A stretch of 33,771 nt of DNA from a bacterium (GTDB lineage: Bacteria; Patescibacteriota; Patescibacteriia; Patescibacteriales; JAKAJF01), in assembly GCA_021788015.1 (NCBI GenBank), contig JAJYLD010000003.1, forward strand, positions 1 through 33,771, read 5' to 3'. Numbering within the stretch: the stretch's first letter is position 1; the number at the start of each line of letters is the position of its first letter. Position numbers and translations under genes: made by a program. Under the pieces are notes generated by a model. It saw nothing but the letters and a program-made list of their open reading frames with translations, was not told the DNA's origin and searched no databases. Shown in pieces: positions 5,809-33,771 of the stretch.

Positions 5809-6047
5809 CCCGTTAGAAGCAGGCCCCGGTAGTACACCTCGTAAACTCGGTGACTACGGGGCGAGACGTGGTTAAAAATAAGTTTTGTGCGATAGAACTT
5901 GTCCCGTAGCCAAATCCGACAGGATTTGTAATATCGGGATCGCGATCAAGAAATTGATTGCATAAACCTGCATAAGCTATTAAAGTCCTCCTGTAAATTT
6001 AACCAATTCCCATTGAAGCGATCGCGGCTTCTAACGGGAATCATGAA
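5809..6047 (-). repeat. Structured palindromic leader element, copy A (terminal inverted repeats GCTTCTAACGGG/CCCGTTAGAAGC)
   Basis: Perfect 12-bp inverted repeat 5809-5820 versus 6027-6038; internal hairpins; homologous blocks at 12803-12905. Confidence 0.75.
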
Positions 6048-6103
6048 TTTATTATAACATAAAAACCAGAAACAAAAAAACAAGAAAGCAAAAAACGAGT
6101 TTA

Positions 6104-10385: not shown

Positions 10386-10460
10386 AAATTTCTAATTTTT
10401 AAACAGTTTCAAATTTTAAAATTTTAAAAATTATAAATTATAAAATTAAAAATTAATTTT

Positions 10461-11641: not shown

Positions 11642-12802
11642 CTAAAACAAGCTGATAAACCTTCTTACAAATTTTAATTTTGCCGACTTATTTTTTCCCA
11701 AGAGCGCTTCTTTATAAACCGTTATCGTTTCCTCGGCTATCTTGTCCCAATTATAAAAATTTTTGACTCTTACTCTTCCCAACTTTTCCTTTTTTTTCAA
11801 TAAACGACGATTCCTTAAAATATACTTGATTTTTTCCCCGAGATCGTTCGCGTCTTTGCTTTTGAACGTAAAACCGGCGTCTCCGAGCGCTTCTTTGTTT
11901 TCCGGAATGTCACTGGCCAGTACAGCTTTGCCGTAAGACATGGCTTCGAGCAAGGCGACGGACAAACCTTCCAGCTCGGAAGATTGAATGAAAAAATACG
12001 CGTTTGAAAATAATTCGGCCAGTGTTCTGCCGGATTGGGTGCCCGTAAAAATAATATTTTTATTTCCTTTCGCCGATTTTTTCAAAAGATCGGAAAATCT
12101 ATCCGCGTAAACATTGTCGCCGACGATGACCAATTTTTTATTTATTTTCAGACCGTTAAAAGCTTTGATCGCGTATTGAATTCCTTTCACTTTTATCAAT
12201 CTGGCCACTATCAATATATAATTGCCGTTTTCGAGCCCCCATTTCTTAATTTCGCGCGCCCCGACTTTTTTCCCCGATTCCGCTCCGTTGGGAATATAGC
12301 AAATTTCTCTGCCGTATCTGTTTTTTACATATCTCGTCAAAGATTTTGAAACGGCGATTGTAAAATCCGCCGCATTACAGGCGGATTTTTCGCCCAAGCG
12401 AAGATAAAATCTGGCGAAAAGTCCCCATTTTTTATGAAGATAACATTTGCTGTGAAAGGTGGAAACAACCGGAACTCCCGGCTTTAGTAATTTTACGAGC
12501 CAGATCAAAGACGACGGCCCGATTGAATGAAAATGAATCACGTCTGCGTCCCTTCTCCAAACATCGAGACACGCCCTGAACGTATGAGTAATGGCGTCAA
12601 AGTTTTTTGTCGATATGCTCGGCAAACTTATCAAATTTACGCCGCGGTATTTTGTTAAATCCGGTTTTGTGTAATTGGGACGAGTATAAACAAAAACTTC
12701 GTGGCCGGCTTCGACCAAACGAACGGACAGTTCTTCGACATGTTTTTCAACTCCGCCGAATTGGGCCGGTATTCCTTTTTGTCCGATAAAATATATTTTC
12801 AT
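11642..12802 (-). CDS. GT4-family glycosyltransferase
   Basis: MKIYFIGQKGIPAQFGGVEKHVEELSVRL...SSELEGLSVALLEAMSYGKAVLASDIPENKEAL. Confidence 0.9.
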   Translation of the reverse strand: MKIYFIGQKGIPAQFGGVEKHVEELSVRLVEAGHEVFVYTRPNYTKPDLTKYRGVNLISLPSISTKNFDAITHTFRACLDVWRRDADVIHFHSIGPSSLIWLVKLLKPGVPVVSTFHSKCYLHKKWGLFARFYLRLGEKSACNAADFTIAVSKSLTRYVKNRYGREICYIPNGAESGKKVGAREIKKWGLENGNYILIVARLIKVKGIQYAIKAFNGLKINKKLVIVGDNVYADRFSDLLKKSAKGNKNIIFTGTQSGRTLAELFSNAYFFIQSSELEGLSVALLEAMSYGKAVLASDIPENKEALGDAGFTFKSKDANDLGEKIKYILRNRRLLKKKEKLGRVRVKNFYNWDKIAEETITVYKEALLGKNKSAKLKFVRRFISLF

Positions 12803-12905
12803 CCCGTTTAGAAGCAAACATCAATCAAAATTTTTGATTGCAATCTGCAAATTAGCTTATATTTTGATTCCCGCGGAAGTAATCGAAACTTCTAACGGGA
12901 TTCAT
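12803..12905 (-). repeat. Structured palindromic leader element, copy B
   Basis: CATGAATCCCGTTAGAAGTTTCGATTACTTCCGCGGGAAT...GCTTCTAAACGGG|ATG; homologous blocks to 5809-6047. Confidence 0.75.
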
Positions 12906-14287: not shown

Positions 14288-14401
14288 GAATTTTATAATT
14301 TTTAATTTTGTAATTTTTAAATAATATTCTAATGAGTTAATTTTTAAAAATTTGTTATTAAAAATTGTTTAAAAATTAAAAATTGGAAATTAAAAATTTT
14401 T

Positions 14402-15394
14402 CTAAAATAGTCTTGCCACTTTGAATTTATTTCTAATTATCCACCATCCGATTTTTAAGGCGTTTTTCCTCATCTCCCCTCTTAAGGTGCAAATCGTCCA
14501 ACTCTCGTCAAATTTTTTCTCTTTTATTTCCTTTCTCGCTTTTTGCGCCTCCGCGCCGGCCCAAATTTCATCAAGATTGTTTTTATTGATATTCCCGATT
14601 TTTAAGTTGATCAGATTGCTCGGATAAACGCTTCCGTCGGCGTCGATAAAGGCGGAATCGAATCCCGCGCCGCTCGGCAAAAGCCTCTTTTTGTTTTTCG
14701 CGTAAAACAAAAGGCCGTATTCGAAATAAGCGCGGAGCCATTTTTTTATTTTTCGGCTCTTGAGTTCGTTTTTTATTATGTAATTCATGGCCGCTTCGAT
14801 TTTTTCCGACGGATTGACGGCGTTATCGTTTTTCTTAAAATAAATTTCCGAATTCTGGACCATGGACACGGAAAACTGCAAATCGTTTTCTGTCGCGAAA
14901 TCGTAAGCGCGGGACAAATCGTCCGCGTTGTCTTCCATCAAAGTAAAACCGATTCCCAAATTTTTCACCCCCGCTTTTTTAAGTCCGAAAAGAGTCGCCT
15001 TCGCTTTCTCAAAAATATTTTCAATCCCGCGAATTTCGTTATGCGTCTCCCCGATTCCGTCCAAAGAAATTCTTACGCCGATCTTCGGATCGATTTTTAT
15101 GGCTTTTTCCATTTGCGCCAAAATCAATTCTGTCGCGAGTCCGTTCGAAGAAATTATGATTTGCGCTTTCGGATTTTTCTTTTTCACAATCTCGACTATT
15201 TCCGGAAAGCGCGTATTTAAAAACGGTTCTCCGCCGGTCAGGTTTACGTATTTCAAATTTTCACCCAAATTCTCGAGGGCTTCAAAATTCAAATTTTCCG
15301 GATTCTCCATTTTCCAGATATTGCACATCTTGCATCTTGAATTGCATTTGTGGGTAATCGCCAAAGTTATGTCGACCAGTCTTGATTTTTCCAT
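14402..15394 (-). CDS. Radical SAM protein (SPASM-like C-terminus lacking most cysteines)
   Basis: THKCNSRCKMCNIW (CxxxCxxC), NLTGGEPFLN, FIDADGSVYPSNLINLKIGNINKNNLDEIW. Confidence 0.9.
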   Translation of the reverse strand: MEKSRLVDITLAITHKCNSRCKMCNIWKMENPENLNFEALENLGENLKYVNLTGGEPFLNTRFPEIVEIVKKKNPKAQIIISSNGLATELILAQMEKAIKIDPKIGVRISLDGIGETHNEIRGIENIFEKAKATLFGLKKAGVKNLGIGFTLMEDNADDLSRAYDFATENDLQFSVSMVQNSEIYFKKNDNAVNPSEKIEAAMNYIIKNELKSRKIKKWLRAYFEYGLLFYAKNKKRLLPSGAGFDSAFIDADGSVYPSNLINLKIGNINKNNLDEIWAGAEAQKARKEIKEKKFDESWTICTLRGEMRKNALKIGWWIIRNKFKVARLF

Positions 15395-26424: not shown

Positions 26425-26599
26425 AATTGAATATTTGCTTTATCAGAAATTATTCCAGGAAAAGCAACATTAAATTTCTAATTTTTAATTTCTGAACAAT
26501 TTTAAATTTTTGAATTTTAAAATTTAGAAATTGAAAATTCATTGAAAATTAAAAATTTAAAATTGAAAATTTTTCTTTATTTTCATTTTAGAAATATAA

Positions 26600-27678: not shown

Positions 27679-27856
27679 ATTAAACGCGGATGAAACGAAT
27701 ATGACACGAAAATTAACGAATGCTATTTAACGTTTCTTCCTATATAAAATTAAAAAAAATATAAAAATTATTTTTTAGATCTAAGCTATTAAAAAATTTT
27801 AGTTCATCTCAAATCGTTCATTTCTTCGTGTGTTATTCGTTTTCTAGTGTTTAAAT

Positions 27857-27955
27857 AAAAAAATCCGTGGCTTCCCACAGACCCAAAATGACTGAAATTA
27901 GTCAGTTTCTCGGCCTCGGCAGGTCTTATTTTCTTGCCTGCTGTCTGTGGCTAAG
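27857..27955 (-). ncRNA. Ribosomal protein L10 leader with intrinsic terminator
   Basis: CCACAGACAGCAGG...CCTGCCGAGG...TGACTaatttcAGTCA...GTCTGTGG then CTGTGG-GAAG-CCACGG-ATTTTTTT, upstream of rplJ. Confidence 0.88.
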
Positions 27956-27969
27956 CTTTATATGAATTT

Positions 27970-31793: not shown

Positions 31794-31795
31794 AA

Positions 31796-31868
31796 ATTGG
31801 TTATTATCCGGTTAACGAGTTAAAGAGCTAACGGGTTGTTTTTTAACTCATTAATCCGTTAATAGTTT
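31796..31868. repeat. Intergenic repeat R, copy 1
   Basis: aattggttattatccggttaacgagttaaagagctaacgggttgttttttaactcattaatccgttaat; matches 32324-32400. Confidence 0.75.
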
Positions 31869-31879
31869 AATCAAAAATT

Positions 31880-32320
31880 CTATTTATCCAAATTCTTAAT
31901 TTTTTTCCATTTTTTTACGGCCTTTGTTCTCGCCAATTCTTTTTCGATTTGGGCTTGTATTTCCGTAAAGTCTACATCATCCTTATGAATCGCGTTTTTC
32001 TTGGTTTGTTCGGCTCTTTTTCTCGCTTCTTCCGCCCTGTTCGTGTCGATTTCATGCGCGCGTTCCGCCGTATCGGCCAAAATCACAACCTTGTCTTTTA
32101 AAACTTCGAGAAAACCGCCGGACACGGACATGACCTCGATTTGGTTATCTTTTGTTTTCGCTTCAATGACTCCGGATTGCAAAGACGCGATCAAAGGAAT
32201 ATGATTCGGCAAAACCGTAATCTCCCCTTCCCTGGTAGGAACGGTTACCTGGAGCACATCCTCTTTTAAGACGACTCTTTCGGGTGTGACTATTTCGAAA
32301 TGGATTAATTTATTGTCCAT
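31880..32320 (-). CDS. atpC: ATP synthase F1 subunit epsilon
   Basis: IHFEIVTPERVVLKEDVLQVTVPTREGEITVLPNHIPLIASLQSGVIE; next to atpD. Confidence 0.95.
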   Translation of the reverse strand: MDNKLIHFEIVTPERVVLKEDVLQVTVPTREGEITVLPNHIPLIASLQSGVIEAKTKDNQIEVMSVSGGFLEVLKDKVVILADTAERAHEIDTNRAEEARKRAEQTKKNAIHKDDVDFTEIQAQIEKELARTKAVKKWKKIKNLDK

Positions 32321-32323
32321 ACC

Positions 32324-32400
32324 AATTAATTATTATCCGATTAACGAGTTAAAGAGTTAACGGGTTATTTTTTAACGCATTGACACGTTAATGCGTTAAT
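32324..32400. repeat. Intergenic repeat R, copy 2
   Basis: aattaattattatccgattaacgagttaaagagttaacgggttattttttaacgcattgacacgttaatgcgttaat. Confidence 0.75.
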
Positions 32401-32409
32401 AAATAATTC

Positions 32410-33771
<1,362 letters not shown>

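Follow-up and report, generated by a model that had tools for sequence, protein, structure and literature searches.

Rickettsia palindromic elements (RPEs) insert in frame within ORFs and encode a conserved peptide (PMC10969869), and the Byp-type inserts of Magnusiomyces mitochondrial genes break up coding frames, the ribosome bypassing them (PMC5009743). In genes 25 and 38 of phage T4, a helix shortens the over-long distance between the Shine-Dalgarno (SD) motif and the AUG, and efficient initiation requires that helix (PMC3014915). Here we describe a repeat family of Patescibacteria (CPR) that is best read as mobile but non-autonomous, MITE-like and targeted to start codons. The family came to light in a window of 33,771 nt (the whole stretch of DNA analysed, contig JAJYLD010000003.1 of assembly GCA_021788015.1), which holds two copies, elements A and B (Table 1). 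Our main reading, to which we give a probability of about 0.72, is that this MITE-like repeat inserts at ATG start codons with a duplication of about 5 bp, that its arm helix would rejoin the old leader with the start codon, and that its old copies are maintained.

Element A lies in front of the response-regulator gene, where the minus strand reads TATAAT-aaattc-ATGATT-CCCGTTAGAAGC...GCTTCTAACGGG-ATGAACAAG. As the initial annotation had claimed, the two 12-nt arms are perfect inverse complements (6038-6027 against 5820-5809); 206 nt separate them, and the GGG of the right arm directly adjoins the ATG at 5808-5806 of the PF00072 ORF, so that the element does end exactly at that start codon. The sequence shows all three of the internal hairpins noticed earlier, and so does the MFE fold, which has -85.6 kcal/mol and a z of -5.67, with 0 of 200 shuffles equally stable. 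Two of the earlier statements stood in part. The span proposed for the element, 5809-6047, holds for 5809-6038 together with the terminal T, whereas 6040-6044 is the start-codon target copy and not element; and the TATAAT hexamer is present at 6056-6051 of the minus strand, but the promoter scan did not list it as the likely promoter it had been taken for, and it is a part of the original gene's leader, outside element A. The inner module, with the hairpins TCCCG...AAATCC-TGTC-GGATTT...CGGGA and CCCCGTAGTCACC...GGTGTACTACCGGGG, characterises the long copies (L001-L006, L008) and is missing from the short form of about 115 nt. The comparison with Rfam that had been suggested gave no match on the element in Rfam 15, either at the gathering threshold or at E<=5.

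Table 1. Window coordinates of elements A and B and of the features adjoining them.
Feature	Position	Strand	Basis or remark
Element A core, 230 nt, long form with extra inner module	5809..6038	minus	BLAST and copy comparison
Left arm of A, CCCGTTAGAAGC	6027..6038	minus	
Right arm of A, GCTTCTAACGGG, adjoining the start codon	5809..5820	minus	
Target duplication of A, left copy ATGAT	6040..6044	minus	Element-terminal T = 6039
Target duplication of A, right copy ATGAA	5804..5808	minus	Response-regulator start and second codon
Response-regulator receiver-domain gene; insertion site is its start codon	5419..5808	minus	PF00072, E 8.2e-9
Inner module of the long form, approximate extent	5821..5953	minus	Long and short copies compared
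TATAAT-like hexamer just upstream of the left ATG	6051..6056	minus	Candidate only; absent from promoter-scan list
Element B core, 97 nt, same family, diverged interior	12803..12899	minus	
Target duplication of B, left copy ATGAA	12901..12905	minus	
Target duplication of B, right copy ATGAA	12798..12802	minus	Glycosyltransferase gene start
Family-4 glycosyltransferase gene, start codon adjoins element B	11642-12802	minus	

Other features of the window belong to different classes of sequence. An ordinary ribosomal-protein leader, L10_leader (RF00557), was found at 27847-27968 on the minus strand with 47.3 bits, which exceeds the gathering score. Two 87-nt direct repeats, 84% identical (31795-31881 and 32324-32410), each lie in the spacer between adjacent minus-strand genes and contain GTTAACGAGTTAAAGAG.TAACGGGTT motifs, possibly representing another small repeat family, and several intergenic regions (10387-10458, 14289-14403 and 26455-26576) hold A+T-rich repeats of AATTTTTAA/TTAAAAATT units in direct and inverted copies that are 62-92% alike.

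The dispersal of the element was overlooked by the initial annotation, even though element B at 12803-12899 is a second copy in the same window and matches occur genome-wide, with about 37 copies in the 1.13 Mb of the window's own genome. A BLAST search with element A returned 32 matches there, of which one, at G000:C1:156906-157154 ahead of a phosphoglycerate-mutase-like ORF, covers the full length with 98% identity. When at most 2 mismatches were allowed, the 16-nt right end matched the genome 54 times against once for a reversed-pattern control, both ends entering this count because they are inverse complements. The copies have the ends YCCCGTTAGAAGC...GCTTCTAACGGGR in common and are mostly 97-230 nt long, and none of the TIR pairs carries an ORF. 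The common form of about 115 nt consists of a left arm CCCGTTAGAAGC-C-GCGATCGC, an A+T-rich middle and a right arm GATCGCGATC-T-GCTTCTAACGGG. Across many CPR lineages the ends are conserved while the interiors turn over, to the point that interiors are wholly unlike between subfamilies, internal sequence is genome-specific, and only the arms of about 20 nt are shared. One further interior type, CCCGTTAGATATCC...ATATCTAACGGG, occupies 454-550 of locus L302 (own genome, C8:39900-40900) and lies directly against the ATG of a gene whose product has a signal-peptide-like N-terminus. A third type of about 75 nt (CCCGTTAGAAATCTTTGG...TTTCTAACGGG) is nested within the terminal hairpin of some long forms (L007, L010 and L011 of the own genome) and has its own duplication, GTGTAC/GCGTAC. 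A sister subfamily with a different target habit has the family's ends on elements of 66 or 99 nt (L192, L193, L194, L198, L199 and L212; flanks G-T...A-C); its members show 4-nt duplications (TTCA, TAAA) and lie mostly away from start codons. Several start codons carry elements in tandem, sometimes of differing subfamilies (L059, L081, L112, L143, L144 and L160).

The position of the copies is their most distinctive property. In a strict set of 19 elements of the own genome, chosen without regard to the bases that follow, 18 right ends adjoin an ATG and 1 a GTG. Genes that start at a right copy include those of GAPDH, LigA (DNA ligase), NrdR, L22, L36, S13, SecF and phosphoglycerate mutase. 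By sequence, the ORFs beginning at right ends are complete forms of familiar proteins, the GAPDH Pfam domain, for example, starting from residue 1. A scan of GTDB, one genome per species, matched bacterial MAGs only, nearly all of Patescibacteria lineages and the remainder without a lineage name; the 20-mer used in it included the ATG and was biased accordingly, and therefore eight element-rich CPR genomes were sampled with a pattern ending in GGG. In these, ATG comes directly after 66 of the 78 right ends, and no fewer than 61 of the 66 open an ORF that either has at least 60 aa or runs off the end of the locus; several of the leftovers are short real genes (rpmJ, 37 aa) or run into a second, tandem element. 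About 10% of the main-type insertions in this sample lie away from starts, with ACTTA and ATAAA among the off-start targets of the main type. By simple ORF calls, 819 kb of CPR DNA hold 403 ATGRR sites at starts against 714 at intergenic non-starts, so that about 36% of insertions would be expected at starts with neither targeting nor selection. Orientation is as strict as position: among 124 left ends only one is reversed (L282), and this one adjoins a start codon in reverse. With ends so nearly symmetric, this bias is explained neither by random insertion nor by any obvious selective filter. A fixed orientation on an asymmetric target would be expected if the target were read as a strand, either single-stranded DNA or RNA, and we infer that this may be the case. 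Recurrence in the same gene across lineages (rplI four times, rpmJ, ligA, rpsM) was also considered, but it is near chance for 174 elements and does not enter the argument. Scattered copies unrelated to start codons, which had been named in advance as favouring a simple dispersed repeat, were thus looked for, and copies sitting at start codons were found instead.

The flanks of the element have the form ATGNN plus T on the left and ATGNN on the right, and nucleotides 4-5 agree between left and right in 79 of 85 readable pairs, against 44.8±3.0 in shuffled pairs (maximum 56 in 2000). Since the start codon is duplicated, the downstream gene remains intact, with its start at the 3' end of the element. 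Related subfamilies are flanked by C...G in place of T...A and show 4-nt duplications of TTCA, TAAA and TTGA off start codons. Comparison of these flanks suggests that the terminal base (R, A or G) may be part of the element and the duplication may be of 4 bp (TGNN) rather than about 5 bp (ATGNN), and the flanks of L072 (left GTGAG, right ATGAG) fit such a 4-bp duplication. Empty sites are clearest at rplV, where, among about 28 readable loci, three species have the element between rpsS and rplV, and in about 25 relatives the rpsS stop codon leads on to the same ATG, in most cases over a short spacer; the rplV query, composed of the true first ~30 residues and an improvised tail, served solely for finding these loci. 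In one element-free relative (L311), the first ~20 nt of rplV are repeated about 75 nt upstream (ATGAAAGCATTTTTAAAAAACTA), a further oddity at this start codon. Of 380 genomes of the phylum 9 have the element, and of 60 relatives 3, a patchy distribution; no viral contig matched the 19-nt right end. Judged from such sequence comparisons, the element is dispersed in Patescibacteria by insertion at start codons, those of essential genes included. The suspicion that a palindromic mobile repeat had inserted at this start site to give element A is therefore well supported by the copy number, the target duplication, the empty sites, the tandem insertions and the patchiness.

The arms also covary, contrary to the lack of covariation that had been named in advance as favouring a simple dispersed repeat. 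In the outer 12-bp helix, scored over 65 distinct arm pairs, 765 of 780 cells (98%) are paired, with 6 both-side changes against 0.8±0.9 in shuffles (maximum 4 of 1000), and the inner helix GCGATC:GATCGC has 17 both-side changes against 4.0±1.8 (maximum 10), examples being GGTC with GACC and ACGATCAC with GATCGTGATC. Because the shuffles ignore relatedness, this covariation is supportive rather than proof, and recognition of inverted ends by one enzyme could be another source of it. In the fold set, the mean z is -5.4 and the terminal helix is predicted to be closed in 59 of 60. Orthologous copies are strongly conserved: the elements at rplV are 0.88-0.94 identical between species and those at murG 0.77-0.81, the unpaired middle included, while the third codon positions of the same genes are only 0.41-0.58 identical, and therefore the element is probably selectively maintained. 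The simplest reading would be purifying selection on a non-coding element following its insertion. The rplV copies of L073 and L111 are nearer to each other than to copies elsewhere, which argues against within-genome homogenisation, and independent fresh insertions at the same site keep a small share of probability as a source of this likeness.

Under our main reading, the element inserts at ATG start codons and duplicates about 5 bp (ATGNN), with hardly any exception to a single orientation, and its arms would pair in the mRNA as a helix of about 12-20 bp running from six nucleotides past the old leader to the AUG. This helix would rejoin the old leader with the AUG, by analogy with phage T4 genes 25 and 38; the host would for that reason tolerate the insertions, even in essential genes, and old copies would become selectively maintained. 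The basal helix probably lets the right-hand AUG serve as the translation start. In the sample examined, SD motifs are at background both at the left ATG and at other CPR starts, and 5-6-nt SD matches inside the element are likewise at background level, so that a "bridged SD" form of the model is unproven, and the rejoined part may be an unstructured A-rich leader instead. The 4-nt SD matches inside the element were set aside, their count being inflated by GATC in the query motif. In the degenerate copies L182 and L187 the left arm is lost and the gene still lies downstream, and hence the helix is not essential everywhere. Mutations (ACG, ATA, ACA) are frequent in the left ATG but the right ATG persists, which would fit a left ATG that acts as a harmful decoy. 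Tentatively, and with more doubt than belief, we would go further and propose that the element recognises a start site by its role in translation, perhaps by way of the mRNA or the initiation complex and not from the DNA sequence alone, that the built-in helix keeps the invaded gene translated, and that old copies have joined the host initiation apparatus.

As regards the mobilising enzyme, a search for an autonomous element with the same ends and an internal gene, which covered unpaired or distant ends in the fetched CPR loci (819 kb) and every end site in the own genome, found none. The reverse-transcriptase domain RVT_1 (PF00078) is absent from the own complete genome and from 7 of 8 element-rich genomes, and DDE_Tnp_1 is mostly absent from element-rich genomes. 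Of 9 element-rich genomes, 7 have divergent Y1_Tnp genes and two lack them; such genes also occur in element-poor genomes, one of which has 11. None of these three candidates occurs in every element-rich genome, and no common transposase was found among them.

It is possible, if doubtful, that we are dealing with an ordinary MITE of weak target preference (TNNA/ATGRR) whose copies are left at starts by selection, on the reasoning that the junction before an ATG is among the few harmless places in compact, largely SD-independent CPR genomes. The same-ended subfamilies at TTCA, TAAA and TTGA, the few main-type members off starts and the unenriched SD motifs at CPR starts all agree with this; yet starts hold more than 90% of the ATG-flanked copies despite the larger number of non-start sites, the orientation stands at about 100:1 in spite of nearly symmetric ends, and insertions occur within tight operon junctions such as rpsS-rplV. 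Position and orientation fixed relative to the AUG, covarying arms with stable folds, and orthologous copies conserved far above synonymous sites would also suit a host-domesticated leader RNA controlling the translation of many genes, its spread being secondary; such a general role is nevertheless unlikely in view of the patchy distribution, the gene sets that vary by species, the target duplications and empty sites, and the genome-specific internal sequence. The narrower proposal of a cis-regulatory RNA specific to the REC/HlyD/beta-helix genes is unsupported, given that copies of the element also stand before dozens of housekeeping genes unrelated to these.

Very improbable is an intron-like element excised from the mRNA so as to restore the continuity of leader and ATG: target duplication typifies DNA insertion and not introns, the subfamilies share nothing beyond the arms, RVT_1 is missing as described, and at E<=5 there was neither a group I/II intron nor any other Rfam match, bar one chance match, even if the duplicated start codon would give seamless removal and the element is tolerated in essential genes. 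We give hardly any credence to a leader peptide that starts at the left ATG (MNPVRSRDR...) and is read through the element, with reinitiation at the right ATG. In 19 of 86 copies with a left ATG, two rplV copies among the examples, the ORF does extend to a TAA 4 nt before the right ATG or to a TGA overlapping it, but in 66 of the 86 it stops within the element, the length modulo 3 is unconserved, and the left ATG is often mutated.

The reading as a mobile family with start-codon targeting has several consequences. It raises the question of how a DNA insertion machinery could locate translation starts, and in a single orientation; it indicates that tiny genomes can hold dozens of insertions in essential operons without gene loss; and it offers, in the same gene with and without the element, natural experiments on the translation start in Patescibacteria, where initiation, to our knowledge, has hardly been studied. 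For annotation, short ORFs of the MNPVRSRDR... type read from elements may be false genes. We found no description of the element or of start-codon insertion in published open-access papers, and it is a real possibility that the principle of start-codon targeting is new.

Among known systems, the element is MITE-like by its defining features, with the parent not found: like MITEs, it is short, non-coding and dispersed, has TIRs and a target-site duplication, is without a transposase and folds as an RNA hairpin. Unlike them, it lies nearly always exactly on start codons and in one orientation, its ends are conserved over CPR lineages while its interiors turn over, and no parent IS with the same ends was found. 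With REP/RAYT and IS200/IS605 it shares subterminal hairpins, and strand-specific insertion would suit its fixed orientation, but those systems (Y1_Tnp), as far as we know, make no target duplication, whereas here one is present and covaries between left and right. RPEs resemble it as palindromic mobile repeats of about 100-150 bp tolerated in or at housekeeping genes of small genomes, the difference being that our element lies before the ORF and its leader frame mostly contains stops. The Byp-type inserts are likewise nucleotide blocks present in many genes whose function is kept (PMC5009743), but the element leaves the coding frame whole. The split initiation regions of T4 genes 25 and 38 share with it a helix joining leader and AUG (PMC3014915), which in our case is predicted; they are single, immobile hairpins of about 17 nt with a clear SD, in contrast to a mobile element of 100-230 nt where an SD is usually absent. 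It is the start-codon position together with the polarity that distinguishes this element from MITEs, RPEs and REPs as reviewed in PMC10969869.
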